Virus record (IMG/VR): IMGVR_UViG_3300009164_000257 | Location: 1 to 29,428 of that record | Source: a virus | Length of the DNA stretch: 29,428 nt | Direction: 5' to 3' (one strand) | Shown: piece by piece, positions 10,374 to 29,012 of the stretch | How the letters are laid out: every line of letters starts with the position of its first letter | How positions within the stretch are numbered: the first letter of the stretch is position 1 | Notes under the pieces: generated by a model | Seen by the model: the letters and a program-made list of their open reading frames with translations, nothing else | Told to the model about the DNA's origin: nothing | The model's database searches: none | Position numbers and translations under genes: made by a program

Positions 10374-10399
10374 ACAAAAAACAACAAATAACGTTTATA
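10374..10399 (+). promoter_or_regulatory. Candidate late promoter A (ACAAAA ... CGTTTATA)
   Basis: ACAAAAAA begins at 10374 and CGTTTATA is at 10392-10399, with 16 nt between the AC and the CGT. This matches ECF-type spacing (AAC, 16-17 nt, CGTnTA). The same two boxes stand before 17333, 20382 and 26524. The ATG of the tail chaperone is 4 nt after the second box, so a transcript started ~7 nt after CGTTTA would begin at the ATG itself. Confidence 0.6.
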
Positions 10400-10403
10400 C
10401 ATT

Positions 10404-11081
10404 ATGAAGCTAGAGCTAACAATTCCAACGCATCTAAAAGAAATTAAGTTACTTCAGTACCAAAAATTTCTAAAGATTGCCAAAGAAAATGAAGAGAGCG
10501 AATTTTTGCATCAAAAGATGGTGCAAATATTTTGTGGTATTGATTTAAAGGATGTCGCAAATATTAAACGAAAGGATGTAGCTAGTATAACAAGCAATCT
10601 AGGAGTTTTGTTTAATAGTGACCATAAACTAATAGAACGCTTTAAAATAGGAAATTTAGAGTTTGGATTTATTCCTAATCTTGATGACATGACTCAAGGG
10701 GAGTATGTAGATTTAGATAGCTATATTACTAACTGGGAAGAAATGCACAAAGCGATGGCAGTTCTTTATAGACCAATTAAAGCTAAAATAGGCGATAAGT
10801 ATCGTATAGAAGAATACAATGGTTCAATAACCTATGCCGATATAATGAAACACGCACCACTTGATGTTGTTCTTGGTGCGGTGGTTTTTTTTTATCATTT
10901 AGGGAACGAATTGTTGAAAAGTACGCTGAGTTATTTGGAGGCGAATCCGAAGATAACGGATATAGTGAACAAGCACAATTTGGAAAACGGTGGGGATGGT
11001 ATAGCTCTCTCTATGCTCTCGCTCAAGGAGATGTTAGAAGATTTGATGAAATTTCAAAACTTAGCGTTCATCAATGCCTAA
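10404..11081 (+). CDS. Tail assembly chaperone, frame-0 product
   Basis: The unshifted product has 225 residues and is helical. Segments such as EFGFIPNLDDMTQGEYVDLD, then MHKAMAVLYRPI and APLDVVLGAVVFFYHLGNELL are familiar from Bacteroidetes siphophages. Tail chaperones coat the tape measure during tail assembly and are usually made in two forms by ribosomal frameshifting. Here a run of nine T (10885-10893) gives the slippery heptamer T-TTT-TTT in frame, and the -1 frame beyond it is open to 11146. The frame-0 end past the slip (LENGGDGIALSMLSLKEMLEDL) also looks like real protein, so the last 190 nt appear to be used in two frames. The 11-kb-wide gene order (terminase, chaperone, tail genes, tape measure) supports the call. 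Confidence 0.75.
   Translation: MKLELTIPTHLKEIKLLQYQKFLKIAKENEESEFLHQKMVQIFCGIDLKDVANIKRKDVASITSNLGVLFNSDHKLIERFKIGNLEFGFIPNLDDMTQGEYVDLDSYITNWEEMHKAMAVLYRPIKAKIGDKYRIEEYNGSITYADIMKHAPLDVVLGAVVFFYHLGNELLKSTLSYLEANPKITDIVNKHNLENGGDGIALSMLSLKEMLEDLMKFQNLAFINA
10886..10892 (+). promoter_or_regulatory. Programmed -1 frameshift site T_TTT_TTT
   Basis: In frame 0 the codons read GTT TTT TTT TAT, so bases 10886-10892 are a canonical X_XXY_YYZ slippery heptamer. After a -1 slip, reading continues TTA TCA TTT AGG. The -1 frame is closed upstream by TGA at 10862-10864 and has no ATG before 11081, so it can only be entered by shifting within 10865-10892. Confidence 0.8.
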
Positions 11082-11146
11082 TGTTTTTAACTTTTGAAAA
11101 GCAAAAGAATAATTTGGAAATGAAAATGATTAAAAGTCAAAAATAA
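10892..11146 (+). CDS. -1 frame extension of the tail assembly chaperone (T domain)
   Basis: After the shift, 84 codons are open to TAA at 11144-11146. The peptide is coherent: RERIVEKYAELFGG, then FGKRWGWYSSLYALAQGDVR, RFDEISKLSVHQCLMFLTF and a charged helix ending MIKSQK. This W-G-W plus 'LAxGDxxRFDEI' pattern is typical of the shifted C-terminal domain of tail chaperones. Joined to residues 1-163 of frame 0 it gives about 247 residues. The stop shares a base with the ATG of the next gene (TAATG), which removes an otherwise unexplained 64-nt gap. By analogy with lambda G/GT, the extended form would bridge the tape measure and tail tube. Confidence 0.8.
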   Translation, partial: LSFRERIVEKYAELFGGESEDNGYSEQAQFGKRWGWYSSLYALAQGDVRRFDEISKLSVHQCLMFLTFEKQKNNLEMKMIKSQK

Positions 11147-11601
11147 TGAACGGATATTATTACATAGTAAATACTTTAAAAGACTACCTAAAAAATACTG
11201 GTGTTATTAATACCGTTACTATTGGAGATATTTTTAAGGTTGATTTAAGCAAGCAGACTATTTATCCTCTTTCGCATATTATTGTAAATAATGCCCAGTT
11301 AGGAGAAAGTACTACTTCTTTAAATGTTTCAATTTTATTTATGGATTTGGTAGATGAAAGCAAAAAAGAAATTACTAATATTTGGGATGGCAATGATAAT
11401 GAGCAAGATGTTTTAAATACTCAACTTACTTTAGGCTCAAGACTATCTAGTGCTCTAATGAGGGGAGATTTATTTTCTTATTTAATTCAAGTTACAAATG
11501 CTCCAAATGCAGAGCCATTTACAGATAGATTTGAAAACAAAGTGGCTGGATGGACAATAACGTTTGACGTAAGTATTCCGAATGATATGACTATTTGCTA
11601 A
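11146..11601 (+). CDS. Probable tail terminator/completion protein
   Basis: A 151-residue protein with an alpha/beta pattern: an N-terminal helix (YYYIVNTLKDYLKNTG), strands with FKVDLSKQTIYPLSHIIVN, a long helix (LNTQLTLGSRLSSALMRGDL) and a C-terminal strand pair ending in GWTITFDVSIPNDMTIC. The 'YP-x-H-I...' strand followed by a helix and final strand resembles small tail-terminator proteins such as gpU, and the size fits. This is a resemblance in layout and context (between the tail chaperone and tail genes), not a domain match. Confidence 0.45.
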   Translation: MNGYYYIVNTLKDYLKNTGVINTVTIGDIFKVDLSKQTIYPLSHIIVNNAQLGESTTSLNVSILFMDLVDESKKEITNIWDGNDNEQDVLNTQLTLGSRLSSALMRGDLFSYLIQVTNAPNAEPFTDRFENKVAGWTITFDVSIPNDMTIC

Positions 11602-12138
11602 ATGGAACTAAAGAACGTAGATGAGCTAATTAAAAAGTATAGAGGATACGTTATTCAGCAAGCTAGAAGCAATTTAACTAAAGGTGGTAAGAATGTTTCA
11701 AGTCAGCTTTATAATAGCCTTAAAAGCGAAGTATTAAAAGAAAATAATTATTCTTTAATTAACTTCTCTATGGAATCTTATGGAGCTTATCAAGATTTAG
11801 GTGTACAAGGTAAATCTAGCAATAGAAAAGCTCCTAATAGCCCATTTAAATTTGGAAGTAGTAAAGGTTTAAAGGGTGGTCTTACTCAAGGAATTGATAA
11901 ATGGGTTAGGACTAAAGGAATACAATTTAGAGATAAAAAGAGTGGTAAATTTTTGAGTTATCAATCTACTGCATTTATTATTACTAGAAGTATTTACCAA
12001 ACTGGGATTCGTCCTTCTTTGTTTTTTACAAAACCTTACCAAAGAGCAAATGATTTGTATTTAGGTAATGAATTAATAAAAGCATTTAAAGCGGATATAG
12101 ATACGCTTGTAAGTTTTAAATTAGAAATTAAAAAATGA
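11602..12138 (+). CDS. Putative head-tail joining/tail completion protein (178 aa)
   Basis: A 178-residue basic protein directly joined to the previous stop (TAA-ATG) and overlapping the next gene by 4 nt. The N-terminal helix (VDELIKKYRGYVIQQARSNL) and the middle segment MESYGAYQDLGVQGKSSN then PFKFGSSKGLKGGL, followed by IRPSLFFTKPYQRA, resemble HK97 gp10-type neck or tail-completion proteins, in which a helix, a glycine-rich loop and a 'RPSLFF' strand occur in this order. Role inferred from this pattern and its place among tail genes. Confidence 0.5.
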   Translation: MELKNVDELIKKYRGYVIQQARSNLTKGGKNVSSQLYNSLKSEVLKENNYSLINFSMESYGAYQDLGVQGKSSNRKAPNSPFKFGSSKGLKGGLTQGIDKWVRTKGIQFRDKKSGKFLSYQSTAFIITRSIYQTGIRPSLFFTKPYQRANDLYLGNELIKAFKADIDTLVSFKLEIKK

Positions 12139-13208
12139 TACTTTACGCACGTAGTCCTTACTTTATAGAAGTAAACGAAACAAGTCAGTTAGGCTCAAAA
12201 ATAGAGTTAAGAATTTGGAATAATCCAAACTCACGACCTACTGACCCGACATATACGTTTACTAAATCTATTGCATCTGCAACTAATAGAAAGAACGTTT
12301 ATAATATTGCCCCATACATAAAAGAATACATTGAATCTATTAAACCTAGTGATAACACAGATTCTATGATGGCAATCTATGAAGTGAAAAGATTCAAAGA
12401 AGCTTCATTAGGTACTTATACTTTATTAGATACAACAACAAATTATTCAACTGGAGGATACACAAACTATTCTGGTGGTTATAATCAAAGTGGTTCAACT
12501 GCTACAATACTTCCTCTTGCAAATACAAGCCTTGAATACTTTTATGAAGAAGATATTGTTGAATCTAAATATCCGTATATTAATGTATGGGCTAATAACA
12601 TAAGTCCTGCAACGCTTACCGTATCTTATAAAGATAAAAGAGGTAGAAATGAAGTAATAGTTACTATTGCTAGAGATGGGGCAAAGCTTTATAAAATACC
12701 TTTAAGAACAACTAGCTCAAAATTTGATAATGGTAATACTTGCTCTATTAAATGGAAGCCGACTGGAGAATATACGGATGACATAGCTACTATAATTGTA
12801 ACACCAGTTTGCGAGCCAAAGTATAGTCCTATTCAATGCCAGTTTATTAATCGATATGGTGGGTGGCAATTCTTAACATTCTTTAAGGCTCAAACTAATA
12901 CTATTCAAACAATAGGAACTACTTATAAATTATTGCCAGATGCAGTAAATTATAATGCTTCACGAGCACAAACAAAATCATTTAACATAAATGGAGGACA
13001 AAGTATTAAATTAAATACTGGATGGCTTCCTGAAAACTATAATGAGCTTATTCAAGACTTACTTTTAGCTGAAACTATTCTTTTAGATGGGATACCAGTA
13101 GAAATAAAAACTACTTCAACTGATTTAAAGACTAGTTTAAAAAATAAAAATATCAATTACGAGATTGAATTTGATTATGCGTTCTCACTTATTAACGATG
13201 TAGTTTAA
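12135..13208 (+). CDS. Tail-associated structural protein (357 aa)
   Basis: A 357-residue beta-rich protein with many Thr, Ser, Asn and Tyr residues and repeated short strands (YTNYSGGYNQSGSTATIL), typical of virion surface or tail proteins. Visible blocks include ILYARSPYFIEVNE at the start, a central GRNEVIVTIARDG and CEPKYSPIQCQFINRYGGWQFLTFF. The last motif recurs in Bacteroidetes phage structural proteins. It lies between the tail completion gene and a large tail protein, overlapping its neighbours by 4 and 1 nt. It is probably part of the distal tail or baseplate. Confidence 0.6.
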   Translation: MILYARSPYFIEVNETSQLGSKIELRIWNNPNSRPTDPTYTFTKSIASATNRKNVYNIAPYIKEYIESIKPSDNTDSMMAIYEVKRFKEASLGTYTLLDTTTNYSTGGYTNYSGGYNQSGSTATILPLANTSLEYFYEEDIVESKYPYINVWANNISPATLTVSYKDKRGRNEVIVTIARDGAKLYKIPLRTTSSKFDNGNTCSIKWKPTGEYTDDIATIIVTPVCEPKYSPIQCQFINRYGGWQFLTFFKAQTNTIQTIGTTYKLLPDAVNYNASRAQTKSFNINGGQSIKLNTGWLPENYNELIQDLLLAETILLDGIPVEIKTTSTDLKTSLKNKNINYEIEFDYAFSLINDVV

Positions 13209-15208
13209 TGATTAACGTACTACTTTATATTTATGATGATGCAACTGGAGAGCCTAGAAGAGTAGAACTTTTCGATGATGAAACTATTAGCGTTACAAGT
13301 AACATTCAAAATGTAAATGATATCAGTAAAGTTTTTACTGATTTTAGTCAATCTTTTACCGTTCCTGCAACTTCGCACAATAACCAAATTTTTAAACATT
13401 GGTATGAAAATTCATTAGATAATGGTTTTGATGCTAGAACACGAAAAAATGGTTATATAGAGCTTGATTATGCTTCTTTTCGTAAAGGTAAAATTCAATT
13501 AGAAAAAGCAAGTTATAAAGAAGGCAAAGTAAATAGTTATCAAATTACATTCTTTGGAGCTTTAATTTCTTTAAAGGATGCTTTTGGTGGCAAGTTTTTA
13601 AAAGACTTAGATTTAAGTTCATACAATTTTACATATACTGGTAACGTAGTTAAAAATCGTGTTACGGCTTTAGCTGGAACAGATGTAATGTTCCCATTAA
13701 TATCTTCTAAAAATGCTTGGAGATATGGAGGAGCTGGAACAACTTATGATAACTGGGATATTTCTAATAGTGCAACACCTATTTATTATAATGACTTATT
13801 TCCTGCAATTAGAGTAAAGCGTGTATTTGATGCAATAGCAGCTTTATTAGGAGTAACTTTTCAAGGAGATTTTCTTTCAGATGCAAGATTTACTCGTGCA
13901 TTTTTATGGCTAAAAAATAGTGATATATTTGAACTTAAAACCGTAGCTAATAAACTTAACTTTCAAACAAATACATCTACAACTGGAACGCAGGGTATTT
14001 TTAACGTATTTAGTGATACGCTTAACTATGTAAAGCCAACAGCTCCAGAATATCTTAGTCAATCTCATATAACAATTACGTTTAGCGTTCCTAGTATTGG
14101 ACAAGACGCACAAGAGTTTTTCTTTTATGTTTATAAAGATGGAGTCGTAATTAATACACAAAGTTATTTAACGCAAATTACTCCAATGTATTTAGAAGTT
14201 CCTTTGGAAGAATCTGGTGCATATACTTTCTATATTGCTTCTACAGCAGCAATATCTTTTACAAGTGTTTATTATTATGAAACTGGTAGACTTGATGGTT
14301 CAACTTATACTAAGATGACTGATTTAACGGTCACTCAAAGTACAACGCAGACTACTACAACTACTATGGCAGTAAATCAGTATATGCCAGATATTACTAT
14401 TGAAGAATTCTTTAGTGGTATATTAAAGATGTTTAATTTAACCTGCTATTCAGATTCTACTGGAGTATTTAAAATTGAGCAATTAGAAGGATGGTATGCA
14501 AATGGAACTACTAGAGATATTACTCAATATATTGTAAATGATGTAATAGATATTGAAAGAAGTAAAGCATATAAAAAAGTAAATTTTAAATACCAACCTG
14601 CTGAATCTTTTTTAAACGTAGAGTTTATGTCACGCTCTAAAGTTCCTTATGGAGATTTATACTATGAGCTTGACAACGATGGCGAAGAATACAATGTAGA
14701 GCTTCCGTTTGAAACACTTTTAGGAACTAAATTTACTGGTACTAATTTACAAGTAGCTTTTGCTTTAAAGCCTAGTTATATTCCTTACATTCCAAAGCCA
14801 GTTATACTTTACGATTATGGCTCAACACAAACTACTTCGGCTTATAAATTTAACGATGGTACTTCAACGACAAGTGTAACTTCAGCTAATATATTTGGAC
14901 AAGATACTTTAATTAGCTCGGTAGATTATACTCTAAACTTTGGAGCTGAACAATCTACTTATACAAATGCAATAGAAAACCAATCTTTGTTTAAAAATTA
15001 TTATTCAAATTACCTTAATAACATTTTTGGAATTAAATCAAGGATATTTAAACTAAAAGCAGTTTTGCCAATTAGTCTTTTAACTAATTTAAAAGTAAAC
15101 GATAGAGTTATTATTAGAGATAAACGATATACTATTAATCAGTTCACAACTGATTTAATAACTGGCGAGGTTGAATTTGAATTATTAACAGACTTTAGAA
15201 CGATATGA
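13208..15208 (+). CDS. Large tail/baseplate protein (666 aa)
   Basis: A 666-residue beta-rich protein. The N-terminal 130 residues carry VELFDDETISVTSNIQNVND, then DFSQSFTVPATSHNNQIFKHWYEN and RKGKIQLEKASYKEGK, a module familiar in Bacteroidetes phages. A central carbohydrate-module-like, Thr/Ser-rich stretch (~residues 260-400) and a C-terminal section with FSGILKMFNLTCYSDSTGVF, followed by KVNDRVIIRDKRYTIN, suggest a tail-tip protein resembling the domain order of distal tail and tail-associated proteins. It lies before the tape measure gene. It could be a distal tail protein or the tail hub; no enzymatic motif is seen. Confidence 0.6.
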   Translation: MINVLLYIYDDATGEPRRVELFDDETISVTSNIQNVNDISKVFTDFSQSFTVPATSHNNQIFKHWYENSLDNGFDARTRKNGYIELDYASFRKGKIQLEKASYKEGKVNSYQITFFGALISLKDAFGGKFLKDLDLSSYNFTYTGNVVKNRVTALAGTDVMFPLISSKNAWRYGGAGTTYDNWDISNSATPIYYNDLFPAIRVKRVFDAIAALLGVTFQGDFLSDARFTRAFLWLKNSDIFELKTVANKLNFQTNTSTTGTQGIFNVFSDTLNYVKPTAPEYLSQSHITITFSVPSIGQDAQEFFFYVYKDGVVINTQSYLTQITPMYLEVPLEESGAYTFYIASTAAISFTSVYYYETGRLDGSTYTKMTDLTVTQSTTQTTTTTMAVNQYMPDITIEEFFSGILKMFNLTCYSDSTGVFKIEQLEGWYANGTTRDITQYIVNDVIDIERSKAYKKVNFKYQPAESFLNVEFMSRSKVPYGDLYYELDNDGEEYNVELPFETLLGTKFTGTNLQVAFALKPSYIPYIPKPVILYDYGSTQTTSAYKFNDGTSTTSVTSANIFGQDTLISSVDYTLNFGAEQSTYTNAIENQSLFKNYYSNYLNNIFGIKSRIFKLKAVLPISLLTNLKVNDRVIIRDKRYTINQFTTDLITGEVEFELLTDFRTI

Positions 15209-15360
15209 TAAAACAGATATTAGATATGCTAGTAGCGTTAGACCACTATGGCAAATGTGAAGAAATAGAAATAGCAAAAGGAAAAAATGAGCTTCCAAGA
15301 AGTTTTAAAATGGGATTTGAACAAATTAAAAGATTTATAAAATGGCAGAACAAAAAGTAG
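15205..15360 (+). CDS. 51-residue protein overlapping the tape measure start
   Basis: An ATG-to-TAG frame that starts in an ATGA overlap with the large tail gene (stop 15206-15208) and runs 19 nt into the tape measure gene in a different frame. It fills the 133-nt gap completely. The product is helical and mixed-charge (ILDMLVALDHYGKCEE, then FKMGFEQIKRFIKWQ). Coupling at both ends suggests a real gene. Small proteins beside the tape measure may assist its folding, but nothing identifies a function. Confidence 0.55.
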   Translation: MIKQILDMLVALDHYGKCEEIEIAKGKNELPRSFKMGFEQIKRFIKWQNKK

Positions 15361-17291
15361 TTGAACTTGTAGTAAAAACCAGTTCTGGCAATGCAGAGAA
15401 AGTTTTAAGTGACATTAAGAATGGCATTAAAGATGCTAAAAATGAAGCTGGTAGTTTAGGAGATAAACTTCAACAAGTAGGAGGTAATAGCAATGCTTTA
15501 GATGCTTTAAAAAAAGGTGCTTATGCTTTAATTCCAGGACTTGAAGGGGCAACTGCTGCAAGTAATGGATTATTAGTTAAATTATATGCTTTAGTGGCTA
15601 ACCCAATAGGATTAGTAATTACTGGTATAGTTGTAGCTTTAAAATTTTTATATGAAGCATTTCAATCTTCAGTAGTTGGAGGAAAAGAATTAAAGGCGAT
15701 ATTTGCTGGTATTGATGGAGTAATGACTCAAGCAAAAGATGCAGTTTTTGGTTTAGGTCGCGCATTTATTGATTTAGTTGCAGCTGGTTATAAGTTTATT
15801 ACTTTAGATTTTAGTGGAGCAATGGAATCTTTTGGTAATGCTACAAAAGAAGCAAAAACTTCGATGAAGCAGTTAGGAGATGCTACTACAACAACTTATG
15901 GGGCTATGGCTGAATTAGAAAGACAGCAACAAGCAAATGATAAGGCACGCAAAATAGCTGCGGTAGAAGAATCAAAGAATAATAAATTACTTGTTAAATC
16001 TCGTGATATATTAACAGATGAAACGGCTTCTATTAAAGATAAAAAGAAAGCTTTAGATGAAGTAACTAAATCTGAAAATGCAGCAAGTATAGAAAGAATT
16101 AGAATTGCTAAAAAAGATTTACAAATTATAGAAGCTAAGCAAAAGACATTAGGAGGAGAAGCAGCTAAGAAATTAAATCAAGATGTAAGAGATGCACAGA
16201 TAGCTTTAAATGATGCGGAGGCAGAAGGTGCTAGAAATGGTATTAAATTAAATCGCCAGCGCAAAATGCTTAATCGCCAAGCAAATGCAGATGCAAAAGA
16301 AGCACAAGCTGAACAAGATAGAATTAGAAAAGAAGCAGCAGCTGCAAGATTGGAAGCAGATAAAGTTAATAGAGATGCTGAACTTTCTTTATTAGATGAA
16401 CGTAACAAAGAATTACAAACAAGGATTGATAAGTATAATCAAGATAGAGCCAAATTAATAAAAGCAGGGTATAATGATTTTACTAAAATTGATGCAGCTT
16501 ATTTAAGTGATAAAAACAAAATAAATAAAAAGTTTGATGATGAAGCAGAAAAATTAAGATTAGATAAAATAACAAAAGATAATGCAGCTTTAGCGGCAGA
16601 AACTCAAGGCTTAATAGATGAATCTAATCGTCAAATCAATAAGATTGCTGATAAAAATTTAGAGAAAGCTAATAATGAAAAACTTTCTTTTGATGCAAGA
16701 TTAGCAGCAGTAACTCAAAGAGAATCTTTAATTAAAGATGTAATTTTTAAAACTGAAGAAGAAAAAACTGCTTTTGAAAAAGCGAATGCTGATGCAAGGA
16801 AAAAAATTGCAAAAGATGAAGCTCAAGCTAAAGTAGACCAATTAAATTTTTATGCAAGTGCTTTAGGTTCAATAAGTAGTTTAATTGGAGATAGCACAGA
16901 TGCTGGTAAAGCTGCTGCTATTGCTTCAACTACAATTTCTACTTACTTGGCAGCTCAAGGAGCTTATGCTTCTCAATTAGCTATTCCCACTCCAGATGCA
17001 CCATTTAGAGCTGCTTTAGCGGCTGGTATTGCAGTTGCTTCTGGTTTAGCTAATGTACAGAAGATTATTAGCACTCCTACTCCTAATGGTGGAGGCGGTG
17101 GTTCTGCTCCATCTGCAAGCACTCCACAAGCACCTTCATTTAATGTAGTTGGAACTTCTGGGGCTAATGCTAATCAAATACAAAAACTTAGTCAATCACA
17201 AGCACCTTTAAAAGCTTATGTAGTTTCTAAAGATGTAACAACTCAGCAAGCGCTAGATAGAAATATTATTAAGACTTCTAGTCTAGGTTAA
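15342..17291 (+). CDS. Tape measure protein
   Basis: A 649-residue protein: an N-terminal polar segment, a hydrophobic region (~60-108, YALVANPIGLVITGIVVALK among others), then a long alanine-, lysine- and glutamate-rich coiled coil (~180-530) and a second alanine-rich hydrophobic stretch (~505-575) before a glycine/serine/proline-rich tail (GGGGGSAPSAST). This is the standard build of a tape measure, which sets tail length and enters the host envelope. At the usual 0.15 nm per residue the tail would be roughly 100 nm. The expected chaperone lies upstream at 10404. The start is the ATG inside the small gene at 15205. Confidence 0.85.
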   Translation: MAEQKVVELVVKTSSGNAEKVLSDIKNGIKDAKNEAGSLGDKLQQVGGNSNALDALKKGAYALIPGLEGATAASNGLLVKLYALVANPIGLVITGIVVALKFLYEAFQSSVVGGKELKAIFAGIDGVMTQAKDAVFGLGRAFIDLVAAGYKFITLDFSGAMESFGNATKEAKTSMKQLGDATTTTYGAMAELERQQQANDKARKIAAVEESKNNKLLVKSRDILTDETASIKDKKKALDEVTKSENAASIERIRIAKKDLQIIEAKQKTLGGEAAKKLNQDVRDAQIALNDAEAEGARNGIKLNRQRKMLNRQANADAKEAQAEQDRIRKEAAAARLEADKVNRDAELSLLDERNKELQTRIDKYNQDRAKLIKAGYNDFTKIDAAYLSDKNKINKKFDDEAEKLRLDKITKDNAALAAETQGLIDESNRQINKIADKNLEKANNEKLSFDARLAAVTQRESLIKDVIFKTEEEKTAFEKANADARKKIAKDEAQAKVDQLNFYASALGSISSLIGDSTDAGKAAAIASTTISTYLAAQGAYASQLAIPTPDAPFRAALAAGIAVASGLANVQKIISTPTPNGGGGGSAPSASTPQAPSFNVVGTSGANANQIQKLSQSQAPLKAYVVSKDVTTQQALDRNIIKTSSLG

Positions 17292-17302
17292 AATGAAAAT
17301 GT

Positions 17303-17328
17303 AACAAAAAATAATATAAACGTTTATA
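17303..17328 (+). promoter_or_regulatory. Candidate late promoter B (AACAAAAAATA ... CGTTTATA)
   Basis: AACAAAAAATA starts at 17303 and CGTTTATA is at 17321-17328, with 15 nt between the AAC and the CGT. The AACAAAAAATA box is identical to that of promoter D at 26477. The ATG of the protease gene begins 4 nt after the second box. The motif lies in the 41-nt gap that separates the tail block from the head block. Confidence 0.6.
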
Positions 17329-17332
17329 GGCT

Positions 17333-17911
17333 ATGAGAATTGTCGAATTAGTTATCGAGAAAGATTTAGATGGGATTGATGCGGTAAGCTTGGTAGATGC
17401 ACCAGCTATCGAAGAGAATTTTATCGCTTTAAATAAAGAGTATAAAATGGACTTAGCAGAAGTCGATTCTGAGAAGCGCATTCTTATGGGTGCCGCTCTT
17501 ATTCCTAATAAGCAAATCTATCGTAAGAATGGCAAGGATGAGTTCTACGTGTTCTTTAGTGAGGCAACGGTTAAGCAAGCAAGTGAGTTATTTTTAAAGA
17601 ATGGTAACCAGTCAAACGCTACCTTAGAGCATAAGGCTAAATTTGATGGAGCTACGGTTGTAGAGTCTTGGATTATAGATAACCCAGATATGGACAAGTC
17701 TAAGCAGTATGGATTTAGCTTACCTAAAGGCACTTGGATGATATCTATGAAAATAGAAGATGATAATGTTTGGGCAGATGTTAAGGATGGTAAATATAAA
17801 GGTTTCTCTATCGAAGGTTTTTTTGCTGATAAATTAGAGATGTCTTTACAAGAATTAGAAGAGCAAGAATTAGTTAATCAAATCATAAATATATTAAACG
17901 ATGGCAAATAA
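17333..17911 (+). CDS. XkdF-type (Peptidase_S78_2) prohead protease
   Basis: A 192-residue protein matching the putative phage serine proteases of the XkdF group. It opens VELVIEKDLDGIDAVSLVDAPAIE, has the block NATLEHKAKFDG with candidate catalytic His100, VVESWIID, YGFSLPKGTWMISMKI and then YKGFSIEGFF with candidate nucleophile Ser159. Such enzymes cleave the scaffold and capsid proteins during head maturation. It directly precedes the scaffold and major capsid genes and follows promoter B, so it opens the head operon. It overlaps the next gene by 11 nt. Confidence 0.82.
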   Translation: MRIVELVIEKDLDGIDAVSLVDAPAIEENFIALNKEYKMDLAEVDSEKRILMGAALIPNKQIYRKNGKDEFYVFFSEATVKQASELFLKNGNQSNATLEHKAKFDGATVVESWIIDNPDMDKSKQYGFSLPKGTWMISMKIEDDNVWADVKDGKYKGFSIEGFFADKLEMSLQELEEQELVNQIINILNDGK

Positions 17912-18083: not shown

Positions 18084-18101
18084 TTAATTAAATAAATAAA
18101 A

Positions 18102-18716: not shown

Positions 18717-18736
18717 TTATTAAACAAATTTAAAAA

Positions 18737-19696
18737 ATGGCTACTACAACTAGTATTACTACAACTTATGCTGGCGAGTTTAAAAACCAAATTATCTCGG
18801 CTGCATTATTATCTTCCCCAACTATTGATGCTGGTGGAATCACGGTTAAACCCGGAATTAAGTACAAAGAAGTTGTTAAGAAAATTTCTACTGATGCAAT
18901 CTTAAAAGATGCTTCTTGTGATTTTACTGCAACATCTACCGTTACTTTAACTGAGCGTATCTTACAACCAGAAGAGTTCCAAGTAAACTTGCAATTATGT
19001 AAAAAAGATTTCCACTCTGATTGGTTATCAGCTCAACAAGGTTACTCTGCATTCGATACATTACCTTCTTCTTTTGCTGATTTCTTAGTAGGTCACGTAG
19101 CTGCTAAAGTTGCTGCAAAGAATGAGACTAACATTTGGTCTGGTGTAACTGCTAACGCAGGAGAGTTTAACGGATTTATGACTTTGTTATTGACTGATGC
19201 TGGCTTACCAGCTGCTCAAGAAGTTGCTGGAACTACGGTTACTGCTTCTAATGTAGTTGCTGAATTAGGCAAGATTGTTGATGCTATCCCTGCTTCTTTA
19301 TACACTAAAGATGGTCTTTACCTTTATGTATCTCAAAACATTGCTCGTGCTTATGTTCGTGCTCTTGGTGGATTTGGTGCTTCAGGTTTAGGTGCTAACG
19401 GTACTAACACAATGGGTACACAATGGTACAACAATGGTTCTCTTTCTTTTGATGGTGTTAAAATCTTTGTAGCTAATGGTTTAGCTTCAAACACTGCAAT
19501 CGCTACTTTGAAAGAAAACTTGTTCTTCGGGACTGGTGTTCTTGCTGATATGGATTCATCTTCTGTAAAGGTTATTGATATGGCTGATGTTGATGGTTCT
19601 GAGAACGTACGTGTAGTTATGCGTTTAACTGCTGGTGTTCAATATGGTGCGGTAGAAGATATCGTTACTTATGGTATCACTAACTCTGCTAACTAA
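18737..19696 (+). CDS. Major capsid protein (HK97-fold, putative)
   Basis: A 319-residue protein directly after the scaffold gene, with codon use visibly more GC-ending than its neighbours (e.g. GCTGCT/GGT-rich), consistent with high expression. Features include an N-terminal extended arm (MATTTSITTTYAGEFKNQII), a long beta/alpha stretch (GVTANAGEFNGFMTLL), a central helix (NVVAELGKIVDAIPASLYT) and C-terminal VVMRLTAGVQYGAVEDIV, the last resembling the closing strands of HK97-type capsids. Length fits a small capsid protein. The gene is followed by an intrinsic terminator. Confidence 0.75.
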   Translation: MATTTSITTTYAGEFKNQIISAALLSSPTIDAGGITVKPGIKYKEVVKKISTDAILKDASCDFTATSTVTLTERILQPEEFQVNLQLCKKDFHSDWLSAQQGYSAFDTLPSSFADFLVGHVAAKVAAKNETNIWSGVTANAGEFNGFMTLLLTDAGLPAAQEVAGTTVTASNVVAELGKIVDAIPASLYTKDGLYLYVSQNIARAYVRALGGFGASGLGANGTNTMGTQWYNNGSLSFDGVKIFVANGLASNTAIATLKENLFFGTGVLADMDSSSVKVIDMADVDGSENVRVVMRLTAGVQYGAVEDIVTYGITNSAN

Positions 19697-19707
19697 TTAG
19701 CGTTAAT

Positions 19708-19739
19708 AGCACCTCGTTAATTCGGGGTGCTTATTTTTA
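19708..19739 (+). terminator. Intrinsic terminator after the major capsid gene
   Basis: AGCACCTCG (19708-19716) pairs with CGGGGTGCT (19723-19731) in a 9-bp stem (one G-U) around TTAATT, followed by TATTTTT. It lies between the capsid and tail tube genes, 27 nt before the tail tube ATG. Confidence 0.85.
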
Positions 19740-19758
19740 ATCTTTTAAATTTTATAAA

Positions 19759-20286
19759 ATGGCTTGTGATATTTCTTTAGGCAGAATTGAGCCTTGTAAA
19801 ACAAGTAACGGTGGATTAAAAGCCGTATACTTTATTAACGAGGGCGATGCTACGGGAGTTACTTATGATGCTACGAATACTGATGCTATCTCTGCGGTAG
19901 CTGGTACTCCAAGTGGATTTAAGTACGACTTAAAAGGTAATAGTTCTTTCGAGCAAACTATTACTTCTTCTCGTGAGAACGGAACTACGTTCTTCGAGCA
20001 AACTTTGAATTTAACATTAAAAAAATTGTCTGTTGTAGACCATAAGCAAATTAAGCTTTTGTCTTACGGACGTCCTCAAGTTATTGTAGAAGATAATAAT
20101 GGAAACTTTTTCTATTGCGGTTTAAAGAACGGTATGGAAGTATCTGGCGGTACTATCGTGACTGGTGCAGCAATGGGAGATTTAAGCGGTTACACTTTAA
20201 CCCTAATGGGTCAAGAGCCAGTACCTGCTAACTTTATTTCTGTATCATTGACAACGGCTGGCTTTACAATCGTAACTGGTTCTTAA
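19759..20286 (+). CDS. Major tail (tube) protein, putative
   Basis: A 175-residue beta-rich protein, typical in size for a tail tube monomer. It starts MACDISLGRIEPCKTSNGG, then has strands such as FKYDLKGNSSFEQTITSSRE, FFEQTLNLTLKKL and SGYTLTLMGQEPVPAN. The pattern 'G-x-E-V-S-G-G' and a final 'T-L-T-L-x-G' strand occur in tube proteins. It follows the capsid gene and lies between two intrinsic terminators, so it may be expressed at its own level. No ECF-like box lies in the 27 nt between the upstream terminator and the ATG. Confidence 0.6.
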   Translation: MACDISLGRIEPCKTSNGGLKAVYFINEGDATGVTYDATNTDAISAVAGTPSGFKYDLKGNSSFEQTITSSRENGTTFFEQTLNLTLKKLSVVDHKQIKLLSYGRPQVIVEDNNGNFFYCGLKNGMEVSGGTIVTGAAMGDLSGYTLTLMGQEPVPANFISVSLTTAGFTIVTGS

Positions 20287-20314
20287 TTAGTTTTGTTGTT
20301 TGAGGTTTGAAACT

Positions 20315-20340
20315 GGGTAGGCTGATGTCCTACCCTTTTT
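20315..20340 (+). terminator. Intrinsic terminator after the tail tube gene
   Basis: GGGTAGG (20315-20321) pairs perfectly with CCTACCC (20329-20335) around the 7-nt loop CTGATGT, followed by TTTTT. It ends the head/tail-tube transcript just before candidate promoter C. Confidence 0.88.
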
Positions 20341-20349
20341 CGTTTTAGA

Positions 20350-20376
20350 AACAAAAGATATTAAAAAGCGTTTATA
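20350..20376 (+). promoter_or_regulatory. Candidate late promoter C (AACAAAAGATA ... CGTTTATA)
   Basis: AACAAAAGATA starts at 20350 and CGTTTATA is at 20369-20376, with 16 nt between the AAC and the CGT. The next gene's ATG begins 5 nt after the second box. The site lies 10 nt beyond an intrinsic terminator, which is the natural place for a new transcript to begin. Confidence 0.6.
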
Positions 20377-20381
20377 CAATA

Positions 20382-20708
20382 ATGATAGTTTTAAAAGAAA
20401 TAGGAACGGCTCAAACGGTGCAATTTGTGCCTACTCGTAGAAATGCGGGCAATAGGCTTTTTTTGACTAATGAAACAACTAACGTTACAACTGAGTATTC
20501 AATTACTTGTACTCAAGTTTCATACTATCTTACTTTCTCAAAGATTTTAGCTTTAAAAGAAGGGCATTTTTATACGATGATTATTCAGCAAAATGATGAA
20601 TTAATTTATCGTGACAAAGTATTTTGTACTAATCAAACAATCGGAACGTATAGCGTTAATAAAGACCAATACGTACAAAACGAACAAAACATAATTTTCT
20701 ATGAGTAA
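20382..20708 (+). CDS. Conserved hypothetical protein preceding the portal (108 aa)
   Basis: A 108-residue protein of alternating strands with the pattern AQTVQFVPTRRNAG, LTNETTNVTTEYSI, LKEGHFYTMIIQQNDE and IYRDKVFCTNQTIGTYSVN. Proteins of this form are common in Bacteroidetes phages beside the portal gene, without a known function. It overlaps the portal gene by 8 nt and would be the first product of the transcript from promoter C. Small size and gene context suggest a minor structural role. Confidence 0.65.
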   Translation: MIVLKEIGTAQTVQFVPTRRNAGNRLFLTNETTNVTTEYSITCTQVSYYLTFSKILALKEGHFYTMIIQQNDELIYRDKVFCTNQTIGTYSVNKDQYVQNEQNIIFYE

Positions 20709-22470
20709 CGTTCACGTTTTTAATTTTGAATCGCATAAGCCACCGCAATCCAAAGAATCTAATAGAGAAGCTTGGGTTGAATTTGGCGATGATAACGACT
20801 ATTTTCAGTATTTAATTAATCGGTATAATAATTCGACTACTAATAATAGCATTATTAACTCTATCGTTAAATTAATCTATGGTCGTGGTTTAGATGCTAC
20901 TGATTCAAATAAGAAGCCTAATGAGTATGCTCAAATGAAAATGTTATTTAGACCCGATGTCTTAAAGTGCGTTATTACGGACTATAAGCTTTTAGGTCAA
21001 GGATATTTTCAAGTAATTTATAACAAGGCAAAGAATGCTATTGTAAGAATTGAACATGCACCAGCTCAATTAATTAGAGCGGAGAAATGTAATGAGAAAG
21101 GCGAAATTACTGGGTATTATTATTCTGATAATTGGTCAGATGTTAAAAACTTTGTTCCTAAACGTATTGGTGCTTTTGGTTATGGCGATAAAACGCTAGA
21201 GATTCTTTGTGTACGAGATTATTCAGTAGGACAAAAATACTATTCTAATGTAGACTATATTGGTGCTTTGCCTTATACTCAATTAGAAGAAGAGATAGCT
21301 GACTATTTAATTAACGATGTACAAAACGGATTCTCTCCTACTTCGGTTATTAACTTTAATAACGGAGTTCCAGATGAAGAGAAAATGGCTTTACAAGCTG
21401 CGGATGTTAAGCGAAAATTAACTGGAGCTAGTGGTGCTAAAATTGTTGTTTCATTCAATAGCGATGAAACTAAAAGAACTACTATTGATAACGTTCCATT
21501 AAATGATGCTCCAGCTCACTATACTTATTTAAGTGAAGAATCTCGTGGCAAGATTTTATTAGGACACTCTATTACTAGTGGTTTACTTTTTGGTATTCCT
21601 TCAAGTAATGGTTTTACCTCTAATGCAGATGAGTTAAAGAATGCTTCTATCTTGTTTGATAATATGACAATTCGTCCTAAACAAGGAACAATTTTAGATG
21701 CTATTGATAAAATTTTAGCTTTTAATACTATTAGCTTAAATCTTTACTTTAAGACTTTACAACCTTTAGAATTTATTGACCAAAATCCAGTAATGGATGC
21801 GGCTACAATGGAAGAAGAAACTGGGATTAAATTATCTAAGCATTTAGACGAATTAAACCTAGAAGAGTTTGGAGAAGAACTTGACCCTAACGAGTGGGAA
21901 TTAATTGATAGTAGACAAGTATCATATGAGGATGAAGCTCGCTTAGATGCGGAGCTAGAGGCTTTAAACAACCCAGAAAAGTCTTTGTTATCTAAAGCGT
22001 GGGAGTTTGTAACTACTGGAGTAGCAAGACCAAATATTGGAAGTTCTCAAGATGGTAAACTTTATGCTTCACGTTATAGATATAATGGTCAAACTACTGA
22101 AAAGTCTAGGGAGTTTTGTAAAAAAATGACTCAACTAAATAAATTATATCGTAAAGAAGATATAGAAGCAATGAGTCAAAAGACAAATACTAATCCGGGA
22201 TGGGGCCCGAGAGGAGCAGATACTTATGACATATTTTTGTACAAAGGTGGCGGAGCTTGCCATCATTTTTGGACTCGTGAAACTTATAAACGTTTTATAG
22301 ACCCACGCAGAAAAGGAGCAGAAGAAATAACTCCAGCAGAGGCAAGAAAAGCAGGGGAGATTTTACCAGCTCCATTTAACAAAGAAGATGGAAAAGGTTA
22401 TAAAAAAGACAATCAATTAGTTTACACGGCTCCTATTAATATGCCTAATAAAGGATTTTTACCAAAATAA
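20701..22470 (+). CDS. Portal protein with a C-terminal extension
   Basis: A 589-residue protein. Residues ~1-415 follow the portal pattern: EAWVEFGDDNDYFQYLINRY, NSIVKLIYGRGL, IEHAPAQLIRAEKCNEKGEI, then VSFNSDETKRTTIDN, HSITSGLLFGIPSS and ADELKNASILFDN. Residues ~430-589 form a separate extension with LYASRYRYNGQTTEKSREFC, RKEDIEAMSQKTN, WGPRGADTYDIFLYKGGGAC and HHFWTRETYKRFIDP; this module often occurs with portal or minor head proteins in Bacteroidetes phages. It forms the dodecameric DNA gate at one capsid vertex. The gene is unusually far from the terminase, beyond the tail and capsid genes. Confidence 0.8.
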   Translation: MSNVHVFNFESHKPPQSKESNREAWVEFGDDNDYFQYLINRYNNSTTNNSIINSIVKLIYGRGLDATDSNKKPNEYAQMKMLFRPDVLKCVITDYKLLGQGYFQVIYNKAKNAIVRIEHAPAQLIRAEKCNEKGEITGYYYSDNWSDVKNFVPKRIGAFGYGDKTLEILCVRDYSVGQKYYSNVDYIGALPYTQLEEEIADYLINDVQNGFSPTSVINFNNGVPDEEKMALQAADVKRKLTGASGAKIVVSFNSDETKRTTIDNVPLNDAPAHYTYLSEESRGKILLGHSITSGLLFGIPSSNGFTSNADELKNASILFDNMTIRPKQGTILDAIDKILAFNTISLNLYFKTLQPLEFIDQNPVMDAATMEEETGIKLSKHLDELNLEEFGEELDPNEWELIDSRQVSYEDEARLDAELEALNNPEKSLLSKAWEFVTTGVARPNIGSSQDGKLYASRYRYNGQTTEKSREFCKKMTQLNKLYRKEDIEAMSQKTNTNPGWGPRGADTYDIFLYKGGGACHHFWTRETYKRFIDPRRKGAEEITPAEARKAGEILPAPFNKEDGKGYKKDNQLVYTAPINMPNKGFLPK

Positions 22471-22473
22471 GAA

Positions 22474-22974
22474 ATGGCACAAGCATTATTTGTAAGTCGC
22501 GATGACATTGTAAAGTTTACCGCAGTTAGCGGAAACCTAGATGTAGATAAATTTATTCAATGGGTTAAAGTTGCTCAAGATACACATATTCAAGGATATC
22601 TAGGAACTAAGCTATTTAATAAAATAAACGATGGTATTGTAGCGGCTAATTTAACTAGCCCTTATACAATGCTTTTAAACGTGTATATTAAGCCTATGGT
22701 TATCCATTGGTCTATGGTAGAGTTTTTACCTTTTGCAGCTTACACAATCGCTAATAAAGGAGTATTTAAGCATAATAGCGAAAACTCTCAAAACGTAGAT
22801 AAAGCTGAGGTAGATTATCTTGTAGAAAAAGAACGCTCAATAGCTGAACACTACACTCGTAGGTTTATTGATTTTATGTGTTTTAACCAGTCTTCATATC
22901 CAGAATATAATACAAATAACAATGCAGATATGTTCCCCGACAAGCAAAGTTCGTTTTCAGGCTGGTACTTATAA
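22474..22974 (+). CDS. Head-tail connector protein (DUF6712-like)
   Basis: A 166-residue helical protein. It opens with FVSRDDIVKFTAVSGNLDVD, then VAQDTHIQGYLGTKLFNKI, YIKPMVIHWSMVEFLPFAAY and IAEHYTRRFIDFMCFNQSSYP, ending FSGWYL. This pattern (helical head-completion protein with an 'I-Q-x-x-L-G-x-x-L' segment) corresponds to the connector family called DUF6712 in Bacteroidetes phages. Its position right after the portal supports a role in closing the head and joining the tail. Confidence 0.7.
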   Translation: MAQALFVSRDDIVKFTAVSGNLDVDKFIQWVKVAQDTHIQGYLGTKLFNKINDGIVAANLTSPYTMLLNVYIKPMVIHWSMVEFLPFAAYTIANKGVFKHNSENSQNVDKAEVDYLVEKERSIAEHYTRRFIDFMCFNQSSYPEYNTNNNADMFPDKQSSFSGWYL

Positions 22975-22986
22975 GCCAAAAAAATC

Positions 22987-23012
22987 GAACATTAAAAAAC
23001 TAAAGGTTTATT
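22987..23012 (+). promoter_or_regulatory. Degenerate copy of the late promoter motif (uncertain)
   Basis: In the gap before the gene at 23028, GAAC (22987-22990) and GGTTTATT (23005-23012) are separated by 14 nt. This resembles the four better copies but differs in the first base of the second box and in spacing. It could be a weaker member or chance in AT-rich sequence. Confidence 0.25.
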
Positions 23013-23027
23013 TAAACAAAATAGAAA

Positions 23028-23366
23028 ATGGCTCTTAATTTTACGCATATAAAAGGCGATACATTTAATCAAGTAGCTTTCGAAGTAAAGAAAAATAGCA
23101 CTGCTATTAACTTAACTGGAGCAACAATTAAAATGCAACTTCGTAAGTGTTACTCTGATACTACTCCAGCATTATCATTGACTTCGGTATCTTCTGCTGG
23201 AATTACTATTACTAATGCAGCGGCTGGGCAATTCAAGATAAATGCTCAAATAATTGACATTGAAGTTTTTAATTACGTTTATGATATTCAATTTATTTTA
23301 TCTAGTGGAGAAGTAAAGACATACGTAAAAGGAGGATTCAATATTACACCAGAAGTAACACGCTAA
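23028..23366 (+). CDS. BppU-like baseplate/fibre-attachment protein (112 aa)
   Basis: A 112-residue all-beta protein with the N-terminal BppU/DUF2479-type pattern: FTHIKGDTFNQVAFEVKKN, INLTGATIKMQLRK, AGITITNAAAGQFKINAQII and YVYDIQFILSSGEVKTYVKGG then FNITPEVTR. In other siphophages such domains attach receptor-binding proteins to the baseplate. It lies 4 nt ahead of the fibre gene, so it is a plausible fibre-anchoring partner. Confidence 0.65.
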   Translation: MALNFTHIKGDTFNQVAFEVKKNSTAINLTGATIKMQLRKCYSDTTPALSLTSVSSAGITITNAAAGQFKINAQIIDIEVFNYVYDIQFILSSGEVKTYVKGGFNITPEVTR

Positions 23367-23369
23367 GAA

Positions 23370-26144
23370 ATGGAAGATATTATAGACATCATAGTTACTG
23401 AAACTACCAATTTAATCGAAATTACATCTCAATCAACTGATGAGGTAATTGATGTCAATATCATTGATAATAGAGAGGATATAACGCTTAACGTTACTCC
23501 TACGGTTGTTGAAATTAATATCAATTCCTTAACGGGAAATTTTGGGGTAGCTTGGGGACAAATAACTGGAACGCTTTCTAATCAAACTGATTTAAATACG
23601 GCTCTAGGTTTAAAAGCTGATTTAGTTGGTGGTAAAGTTCCATCTTCTCAGCTTCCTTCTTATGTTGATGATGTAGTTGAAGTTGCTAATTATGCTGCAC
23701 TTCCTGCGACTGGCGAAACTGGCAAGATATATATTACCTTAGATACAAACTTTATTTACCGCTGGTCTGGTTCGGCTTATATTGAAATCAAAGATTCTAG
23801 TGCGGTATGGGGTGCAATAACTGGAACGTTATCAAGTCAATCAGATTTAGTAACTGCTTTAAATGCAAAGTTTGATGACCCAACTGGAGACACTACTCAA
23901 TACATTGCTGGCGATGGCTCATTAATTACGTTTCCAGTTGCTGGGCAATCTGGCACTTTAGTTCGTGAAGTAAGAAATACAACGGGAGCAACATTAACAA
24001 AAGGTACAATTGTTTATATTTCGGGAGCGACTGGCAATAAGCCTACCGTTTCAAAAGCTATTGCTACGGGAGATTCTACTTCTGCACAAACGTTTGGAAT
24101 GTGTCAAGCTAACATTTCTAATAACTCTAATGGCTATATCGTTTGTGTTGGAGATATAACTGGCTTAGATACTTCAGCACTTAGCGAAGGAGTACAATTA
24201 TATCTTTCATCTACAACGGCTGGAACTTATACAACGACTAAGCAATTAGCCCCAGCTCACTTAGTTTATATCGGTGTTGTAACTCGTTCACATCCGAATC
24301 AAGGACAAATTGAGGTTAAGATTCAAAACGGTTATGAACTAGATGAGATTCACGATGTAGCAATTTCATCGGTTGCTAATAATCAAGGTATTTTCTACGA
24401 ATCATCTACTAGCCTTTGGAAGAACAAAAGCATTGCAACGGTTTTAGGTTATACTCCTGAGCAACCTTTGACTTTCAACACACCTTTATCACGTTCAACA
24501 AATACGGTTTCAATTCCTGCTGCGACAAGTTCAGCAAATGGTTATTTAACTTCTACCGATTGGACTACATTTAACGGCAAGCAAGCGGCATTATCTGGAA
24601 CTGGATTCGTTAAAATTAGCGGAACTACAATAAGCTACGATAATAGCACTTATGCTTTAGATTCTTCTGTAGTTCATAATACGGGAGCTGAAACTATTTC
24701 TGGTATTAAATACTTTTTTTCGGGTTCAAAACACGATTTACTTTTTGTTAGTGAAACCGTAGGTTATGCAAGTATTGCTGGTTATTCTCATTTTAAAGCT
24801 AATACTAACCACGTAGAATTTATTAATAGCACAAATACAAAAGCTACTAAGTTTATTCACGGTAATGCAGCTTATGAGTTTACAATGCCTAATGCAAGTG
24901 GAACTATTGCCCTTACTAGCAATTTATCCTCTTACCTACCTTTAAGCGGAGGCACACTTACCGGAGCTTTAAGCGGTACAAGTGCTACGTTTAGTGCAAA
25001 TGCTAGTGCTACTTATTTTACTGCAACTGCTGGACAAGGATATAATGGAAATTTAAACTTCAATTATAATAACGCAAATACTTCTAGTTTTGGTTATTGG
25101 GGTGGTGGTACTAATACTGTATTTTTAGTAACTTCAGCAGGCGCAGCCACGTTTTCGAGTAGTGTTACGGCGGGAAGTAATTTATCAGGAACAAATACTA
25201 TTTTCAAAACAAATGATGCAAGCGGATATGGAATAGGAATTGGATATGTATCAGGAAGTTATGGATATATTACTACTCAATCTGGTAGTTCTCCTTTAGC
25301 ATTATCTATTGATGGAAGTCCTAAATTATGGGTGGCTAGTTCTGGCAACGTAGGCATCGGAACTACTTCGCCGAGTAACAAACTATCAGTTCAAGGTTCA
25401 TCATTAGCTAATATGATTAGTTGGACTGATGCAATTAATAACACAGGATATTTAGGAATTCGTTCATCTGCTGCTTCTATTGGTGCAGATAATAATTTAG
25501 TTTTTGAAACTGCGGCTACCGAACGTATGCGGATTACTAGCGGGGGGAATGTCCTAATAGGCACCACAACGGATGTAGGAGCAAAACTATTAGTATCAGG
25601 AAATATGCGAGTAGGAACTTCTGCTGGAAATTTTGCAGAATTAAATGCAGTAGGTTCTACTCCTTATTTATTCTTAAATGGTCCTGCAAGTAGCTCTACT
25701 ATTGGAGCTAGTTCTCACGTTAATATATTTGATTCTCCAAATGCTAGAGGGTGGGTAATTCAAAGCAATGCTTCACAAAATTTGTGTTTGTGGCATTATA
25801 GCGGGTCTTGGTCTAATGTAGGAAACTTTAATAACTCAAATGGTATTTACACTCCTTTATCTGATAAAAATAAAAAGAAAGATTTTGAGGTTTCAAACAT
25901 TGGATTAAATGAAGTAATGCAATTAAAGCCTACTTTGTACCGAATGAAATCAGATGAAAGCGAAGGTCAAAAGGAACTTGGATTTATCGCTCAAGATGTA
26001 AAGTCTGTAATCCCTAATGCTTATGTAGAAAGCGGAGATTTTATCGGACTTAACTTTAATCCTATTGTAGCAGCATTAACTAAAGCAGTTCAAGAACAAC
26101 AAGTTCAAATTCAAGAATTAAAATCTTTATTAAACAAACAATAA
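23370..26144 (+). CDS. Tail fibre/receptor-binding protein with C-terminal S74 chaperone
   Basis: A 924-residue fibre. The N-terminus (~1-60) holds Asp/Ile-rich strands for attachment. Two related units follow, WGQITGTLSNQTDLNTAL (~66-83) and WGAITGTLSSQSDLVTAL (~151-168). A long beta-repeat shaft follows, with SGNVGIGTTSPSNKLSVQG and a second SGGNVLIGTT unit. The last 94 residues are an intramolecular chaperone of the peptidase S74 type: Ser831-Asp-Lys-Asn-Lys-Lys836, LKPTLYRM, LGFIAQDVKSVIP, and a coiled-coil end ELKSLLNKQ. In this family the Ser and the Lys five residues on cut off the chaperone after trimer folding; both are present. A short GC-rich patch is at ~25532-25572. Confidence 0.85.
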   Translation: MEDIIDIIVTETTNLIEITSQSTDEVIDVNIIDNREDITLNVTPTVVEININSLTGNFGVAWGQITGTLSNQTDLNTALGLKADLVGGKVPSSQLPSYVDDVVEVANYAALPATGETGKIYITLDTNFIYRWSGSAYIEIKDSSAVWGAITGTLSSQSDLVTALNAKFDDPTGDTTQYIAGDGSLITFPVAGQSGTLVREVRNTTGATLTKGTIVYISGATGNKPTVSKAIATGDSTSAQTFGMCQANISNNSNGYIVCVGDITGLDTSALSEGVQLYLSSTTAGTYTTTKQLAPAHLVYIGVVTRSHPNQGQIEVKIQNGYELDEIHDVAISSVANNQGIFYESSTSLWKNKSIATVLGYTPEQPLTFNTPLSRSTNTVSIPAATSSANGYLTSTDWTTFNGKQAALSGTGFVKISGTTISYDNSTYALDSSVVHNTGAETISGIKYFFSGSKHDLLFVSETVGYASIAGYSHFKANTNHVEFINSTNTKATKFIHGNAAYEFTMPNASGTIALTSNLSSYLPLSGGTLTGALSGTSATFSANASATYFTATAGQGYNGNLNFNYNNANTSSFGYWGGGTNTVFLVTSAGAATFSSSVTAGSNLSGTNTIFKTNDASGYGIGIGYVSGSYGYITTQSGSSPLALSIDGSPKLWVASSGNVGIGTTSPSNKLSVQGSSLANMISWTDAINNTGYLGIRSSAASIGADNNLVFETAATERMRITSGGNVLIGTTTDVGAKLLVSGNMRVGTSAGNFAELNAVGSTPYLFLNGPASSSTIGASSHVNIFDSPNARGWVIQSNASQNLCLWHYSGSWSNVGNFNNSNGIYTPLSDKNKKKDFEVSNIGLNEVMQLKPTLYRMKSDESEGQKELGFIAQDVKSVIPNAYVESGDFIGLNFNPIVAALTKAVQEQQVQIQELKSLLNKQ

Positions 26145-26145
26145 T

Positions 26146-26475
26146 ATGGCATTTAACTGGGTAATATCTCAATTAGACTCTATCCCATCACTTGATGGAA
26201 TGGACAAAGTAATTAGCGTAATTCATTACAGAGCGCAGAAGCAATACGAAGAGGATGGAGTAGTAGTCTTAACTTCCGATACGTATGGAGCTTTAAGTCT
26301 TACAGCGCCACACGAGGCGAGCTTCACTCCTTACGATGAAGTGACAAAAGAAATGGTCGAAGGATGGCTTGAATCATCTTTGGACTGCGAAGCAATCGAG
26401 GCGAACTTAGATGCACAGATTGAGAATTTTTTAAATCCTCCTTTAGTCGCTTATCCTTTACCATTCGAAAATTAG
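26146..26475 (+). CDS. Fibre-associated accessory protein (109 aa)
   Basis: A 109-residue acidic protein beginning one base after the fibre gene. The pattern FNWVISQLDSIPSLDGMDKVI, VIHYRAQKQYEEDG, then FTPYDEVTKEMVEGWLES and a final LPFEN resembles a small protein common beside tail fibre genes of various phages (a short beta domain plus a helix with 'E-x-V-x-x-W'). Its role there is not established; fibre assembly is a reasonable guess from position. Confidence 0.55.
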   Translation: MAFNWVISQLDSIPSLDGMDKVISVIHYRAQKQYEEDGVVVLTSDTYGALSLTAPHEASFTPYDEVTKEMVEGWLESSLDCEAIEANLDAQIENFLNPPLVAYPLPFEN

Positions 26476-26476
26476 A

Positions 26477-26503
26477 AACAAAAAATATCTAATTACGTTT
26501 ATA
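26477..26503 (+). promoter_or_regulatory. Candidate late promoter D (AACAAAAAATA ... CGTTTATA)
   Basis: AACAAAAAATA starts at 26477 and CGTTTATA is at 26496-26503, with 16 nt between AAC and CGT. It lies in the 48-nt gap before the lysis block. Unlike the other three, its second box is 20 nt from the next ATG, so this transcript would have a short A-rich leader. Confidence 0.6.
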
Positions 26504-26523
26504 GTGAAACAAACAACAAAAAA

Positions 26524-28959: not shown

Positions 28960-29012
28960 CTTAGATTGTTTTTCATAAAATAGTGTTTTTATAGGTTTAG
29001 AATTGTGTATAG

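Follow-up and report, generated by a model that had tools for sequence, protein, structure and literature searches.

Predicted late promoters and a candidate ECF-type sigma factor in a family of aquatic phages with probable Bacteroidota-type hosts

Late sigma factors encoded by phages are known, including gp47 of Salmonella phage 7-11 and gp36 of phiEco32 (PMC8948821). In 7-11, gp47 has a region 4, works with the host core RNA polymerase (RNAP) and reads late promoters whose two elements are separated by a 16-nt spacer (GTAAtg-16-aCTA) and which precede several late genes, while in phiEco32 middle and late promoters are read by gp36, a sigma factor lacking region 4 whose promoters consist of a single element (tAATGTAtA); phiEco32 additionally has gp79, an inhibitor of host sigma70 transcription (PMC8948821). 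In the flavobacterium F. psychrophilum SM6, a CGT box at -10 has been attributed to ECF sigma factors, in that case at host genes (T9SS and others) (PMC9723704). Searches of the open-licence literature found no description of a late sigma system in Bacteroidota phages.

The locus examined here lies in the IMG/VR virus record IMGVR_UViG_3300009164_000257, of which positions 1-29,428, a stretch of 29,428 nt, were analysed and are called the window. Judged from sequence, the window very likely has four late promoters, each with a -35 element (ACAAAA, usually AACAAAA) and a -10 element (CGTTTATA), that are recognised by host core RNAP carrying an ECF-type sigma factor of the phage's own (ORF 6493-6945). 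The arrangement resembles that of 7-11 in its region 4-containing phage sigma candidate and in its bipartite sites before several late genes, and shares with phiEco32 the use of a phage sigma for late promoters. It differs from 7-11 in box sequences, host phylum and phage type, and in that the 7-11 transcription starts were mapped; coupling of promoters to start codons is not reported for 7-11 in the available part of that source (PMC8948821). A further close match is found in the cultured Nonlabens phages P12024L and P12024S, where a homologous sigma gene (gp35 and gp33, respectively) lies upstream of terL and AACAAA ... CGTT precedes late genes with the ATG 12-13 nt from the C. Conversely, the -10 box of these phages is CGTTAATA, their sigma is only 20-21% identical to that of the window, and no site stands directly after terL. 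The principle is that of the known phage late sigma factors; new are the host phylum, the boxes, the start-codon-coupled promoters and the existence of lineages with different -10 boxes.

Genome layout and the four two-box sites

The window begins and ends with an exact direct terminal repeat of 123 bp (1-123 = 29306-29428), so the record closes on itself as a 29305-bp circle, a 29.3-kb genome. All recognisable genes are on the + strand. They include those for an ERF annealing protein, a DnaA/DnaD-like replication protein, RusA, HNH and ParB/methyltransferase proteins; these genes are followed by terL (9161) and then by the late blocks. An Rfam search of the window gave no match. The virus probably infects a Bacteroidota-type bacterium and probably carries its own sigma factor together with four matching late start signals.

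A first-pass annotation of the sequence had proposed four copies of an ECF-like two-box promoter, before the genes at 10404, 17333, 20382 and 26524, and their exact positions were recovered with the pattern ACAAAA-N(11-12)-CGTTTATA, which has four matches in the window vs. 0.01 expected from dinucleotide shuffles. All are on the + strand. Site 1 (10374-10399; TACAAAA-N-ACGTTTATA) lies directly after terL, its start codon at 10404 being 12 nt from the C of CGT, and site 2 (17304-17328; AACAAAA-N-ACGTTTATA) has the same distance to the start codon of an XkdF-type head protease gene at 17333. Site 3 (20351-20376; AACAAAA-N-GCGTTTATA) stands 13 nt from the start codon at 20382, that of the first gene of a portal/fibre operon, just downstream of a terminator-like hairpin on the + strand (20315-20335; z -3.1), a hairpin-like element that is also found in relatives. 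Site 4 (26478-26503; AACAAAA-N-ACGTTTATA) precedes a lysis operon with an endolysin, 28 nt from the start codon at 26524, and is separated from it by an A-rich leader (GTGAAACAAACAACAAAAAA, 26504-26523, + strand) that is conserved in relatives.

Most details of the annotation stood up: the AC-to-CGT spacing is 16, 15, 16 and 16 nt in order, the gaps holding the sites are indeed short and intergenic (31-95 nt), the copy said to follow a terminator is the third, and the AACAAAA-(A/G)-ATA reported for three copies belongs to copies 2-4, while copy 1 reads TACAAAAAACA. The statement that each copy opens a functional block held for the head protease (site 2), portal/tail fibre (site 3) and endolysin (site 4). 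The "tail" label given to the block after site 1 was not confirmed, because the genes behind that site match only PHROGs of unknown function. Separately, a late protein of 666 aa (13208-15208) weakly resembles a structure of the SusD family (3jys, E 0.011).

A weight matrix trained on relatives alone, with the window excluded, scored the four sites at 23-27 bits, vs. 10.4 for the next separate place in the window and a maximum of 14.3 over 20 shuffled strands. Neither the pattern search nor the matrix found a fifth site in the window, and the matrix scan found none upstream of 10374, all four lying after terL. Other copies of CGTTTATA (193, 4778, 4844 and 12296; 17315 and 22285 on the minus strand) lack a proper -35 partner and were set aside. 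An AAC-like -35 box and a CGT -10 box about 15-17 nt apart, as in ECF-type promoters, are present at the sites, with TAC at site 1. A scan for E. coli-type sigma-70 promoters found no more sites than in shuffles, and the housekeeping -7 box TAnnTTTG is absent between boxes and start codon at all four sites. The -10 box of site 2 is situated inside a perfect palindrome (TATAAACGTTTATA, 17315-17328).

The sites are not peculiar to this record. IMG/VR holds 550 related stretches, forming an aquatic phage family, and relatives were fetched from it through their terminase, portal and sigma genes. In most relatives examined, the same two boxes stand upstream of orthologous genes, so the proposal survives the refuting condition set out in the first-pass annotation, namely that the motif would not be conserved in relatives with the same gene order. 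With the window's four included, 116 distinct ACAAA-N-CGTTTATA sites were counted, all on the late-gene strand. When whole records of relatives were scanned with the strict pattern, each 30-kb genome of the nearest lineages had 4-5 sites and other lineages had fewer; the pattern read backwards gave almost no matches. Conservation is stronger in the boxes than in the spacer at the three non-lysis sites, and the site at the terL-downstream gene reads TAC, neither AAC nor CAC. A scan of viral contigs with the exact pattern matched many unrelated records and was not counted as evidence. In a few relatives the lysis gene or the terL-downstream gene has no site. In five loci (L112, L114, L117, L314 and L315) the lysis-gene promoter is missing while the A-rich leader is retained upstream of the lysis gene. 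One record of 59277 bp, IMGVR_UViG_3300027969_000114 (L010, L284 and L338), contains the site sets of two phages head to tail; these are the sets of 3300009164_000251 and _000250, and the record is probably a joined assembly.

The motif also occurs in further relatives found via the sigma gene, a result that supports the coordinated late regulon suggested at first. For loci L334-L365, homology to the sigma was the only means of retrieval (some of their contigs were already among the earlier relatives); they contain 24 start-coupled sites on the sigma strand and one on the opposite strand, vs. 0.2 expected. In the sigma clade L346-L358 of this set the motif is looser (AC-GAA ... T/GGTTTATA): T or G replaces the C of CGT, and the -35 box is altered at the terL-downstream site. 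In a more distant sigma lineage (L085:11297 and L086:2830) there is a possible variant promoter, ACAAAA-N-TGTATTAT, the TGTATTAT box of which stands 12 nt before the start codon after terL.

A candidate sigma factor and its probable link to the sites

The ECF-like reading of the boxes was strengthened by a candidate that the first-pass annotation had not seen, an ECF-type sigma gene (P0001) at 6493-6945 on the + strand, in the early/middle operon upstream of terL. Profile evidence places its product in a two-domain sigma family: with an iterated profile, 103 ORFs of the fetched loci are assigned to the family, and the window member joins the same profile family. The 150-aa protein has a putative region 2 ("YAEDVVQEAYIKV...") and a C-terminal helix-turn-helix as region 4, with neither region 1.1 nor region 3, and its length is in the ECF range (about 150-200 aa). 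Against P12024L gp35, which is annotated as containing Sigma-70 region 2, BLASTP gives E 1e-4 at 21% identity. For the NCBIfam sigma70-ECF model, TIGR02937, which has a curated cut-off of 42.9 bits, the window protein matches at 2.6e-5 with 23.9 bits, below the cut-off, as are P12024L (29.4 bits), L307 (26.2 bits) and L059 (23.8 bits); the cut-off is reached by L069 (44.3 bits), L084 (43.4 bits) and L086 (42.9 bits), and 30/30 aligned family members match at E up to 0.1. Pfam Sigma70_r2 is matched by 26/30 members at the same limit, with 25.2 bits for P12024L gp35 vs. a cut-off of 24 and a weak 13.6 bits for the window member. For region 4, the NCBIfam match extends to the end of the model, and Sigma70_r4_2 is found in 7/30 members, below its cut-off where shown.

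Structural comparison points the same way. A profile search of the PDB with the sigma family has SigW as its best hit (6.3e-5). An AF2 model of the window protein, built on an alignment with rows from related loci only (rows from the phages collection were left out), has a pLDDT of 81 and a pTM of 0.43, which leaves the domain orientation open; in it, a linker of low confidence at 68-79 connects two helical parts. The PDB structures that the model matches best in fold are all sigma factors, mostly ECF, at E 0.005 and above, with none reaching 0.001, and the model superposes on region 4 of sigmaE at 2.4 A over 60-64 columns. Annotated phage sigma factors are among its best matches in BFVD. A tblastn search with P0001 found nothing among INPHARED phages, P12024L/S being reached via terminase and profiles only. 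Scanning genome contigs with the sigma alignment gave, among the matches listed, one weak, chance-like hit and no host or prophage copy.

Several lines of evidence link this protein to the sites. P12024L and P12024S possess the sigma and have 6 and 5 start-coupled sites, respectively, where 0.0 are expected; all but one read CGTTAATA (5/6 in P12024L), and P12024L has no sites in its replication block and none on the minus strand. In five other Bacteroidota phages (Riemerella RAP44, Flavobacterium FPSV-S20A2 and sniff9-2, Cellulophaga phi19:1 in its first 50 of 57 kb, and Bacteroides BC679P5) there is no match to the sigma profile and no site, counting as sites those with a start codon 12-13 nt away; looser box pairs without a start codon do occur in these phages, on both strands. 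Across lineages the core ACAA...CGTT is constant and the -10 extension varies (CGTTTATA, CGTTATAT, CGTTAATA or CGTTTTAA). The extension tends to be uniform within a genome: every one of the 3-4 sites in records G011, G022 and G024 reads CGTTATA and none reads CGTTTAT, L084 has CGTTTTAA at 2/2 sites, and within-record agreement is 0.87 vs. a shuffle maximum of 0.79. Such agreement of the -10 box with the sigma tracks common ancestry and does not amount to an independent test. The sigma of the CGTTATAT lineage differs from that of the window at V35 (C), Y47 (L) and T53 (A or S), in window numbering, which suggests these residues as candidates for -10 reading; the link is no more than suggestive, because the residues track descent. 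We infer that the sigma of ORF 6493-6945 is the factor reading these sites.

The boxes could alternatively be promoters of a borrowed host ECF sigma, with the phage protein serving otherwise, e.g., as an anti-sigma or repressor. Flavobacteria do have several ECF sigmas, and one F. psychrophilum promoter class has a CGT -10 box (PMC9723704). We consider this improbable, given that the phages examined have the sigma gene and the motif together while the five other Bacteroidota phages have neither, that the -10 box changes at several sites per genome together with the sigma lineage, and that the phage protein has both sigma regions. Even less probable is that the paired boxes are sites for a phage activator beside a degenerate housekeeping promoter. 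A TrmB/HTH-like ORF (7276-7719; E 4.6e-4) in the same operon as the sigma candidate could supply such an activator, but the sites show what is needed of a -35/-10 pair, namely a fixed strand, an AC-CGT gap of 15-16 nt and a set distance from the start of the gene, and the -7 box that such a housekeeping promoter would contribute is the TAnnTTTG found at none of the four sites. Promoters read by the phage sigma remain the preferred reading.

Start-codon coupling and a proposed early-to-late circuit

At 93/116 sites the start codon follows the C of CGT by 12-13 nt, and at 16/116, those of the lysis gene, by 28-29 nt, with the conserved A-rich leader in front of it. Three of the window's four promoters have the shorter distance, and this spacing is kept in nearly all relatives. 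A fixed 12-13 nt to the start codon at three sites might also be expected of a translation signal, the least likely of the explanations considered, but at the lysis gene an ordinary A-rich leader separates the same boxes from the start codon, 28-29 nt away, and a two-box element with a variable spacer better fits DNA recognition. As promoters of a phage sigma, the sites allow a prediction of where transcription would begin. In phiEco32 and 7-11, transcription from phage sigma promoters starts 6-9 bp from the promoter element (PMC8948821), so that at three sites the predicted start coincides with the ATG or lies no more than about 3 nt from it. The first-pass annotation had likewise predicted starts 6-9 nt after CGTTTA, a position that at three sites is that of the start codon. 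Starts at the start codon would in turn make the late mRNAs leaderless or nearly so, which would be unusual given that leaderless mRNAs make up only 5.5% of those mapped in F. psychrophilum (PMC9723704). By analogy with the mapped phage promoters, the late mRNAs from three promoters may hence be leaderless or near-leaderless. To our knowledge, Shine-Dalgarno signals are not used in the phylum Bacteroidota. A wider proposal is that, in this phage group, the fusion of late promoter and start codon makes the phage-sigma switch at the same time a switch to leaderless translation, in a phylum without Shine-Dalgarno signals, and that sigma and -10 box have co-drifted into several possibly orthogonal pairs; we hold this to be tentative, at somewhat short of an even chance.

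The other end of the genome offers a counterpart for early transcription. After the last late gene there is a terminator-like hairpin on the + strand (29011-29043; z -4.6), and behind it a -7 box of the housekeeping type (TATATTTG, 29167-29174, + strand), which heads the early operon. In relatives the corresponding place reads TAnnTTTG, the sequence matched by the -7 box of the flavobacterial housekeeping sigma (PMC9723704). The early -7 box, the sigma gene in the early operon and the late sites together suggest a simple early-to-late circuit. The host housekeeping sigma would start the early operon at about 29170, and early transcription would cross the circular joint into the replication genes, the sigma gene and terL. 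The phage sigma would then accumulate and bind host core RNAP, and the sigma-bound RNAP would fire the four late promoters, three of which would begin transcription at the start codon or about 3 nt from it at most, while the lysis promoter would yield an mRNA with a short A-rich leader. We infer both the temporal order of this circuit and its start points.

These findings suggest a likely function for an unannotated small protein of a large aquatic phage family, and a candidate late-gene switch for Bacteroidota phages. Among the lineages, sigma/promoter pairs with different -10 boxes on a constant ACAA...CGTT frame make up a natural series that would help in reading the ECF specificity code. 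Furthermore, the fixed promoter-to-ATG distance raises the question of leaderless translation in a phylum without Shine-Dalgarno signals.
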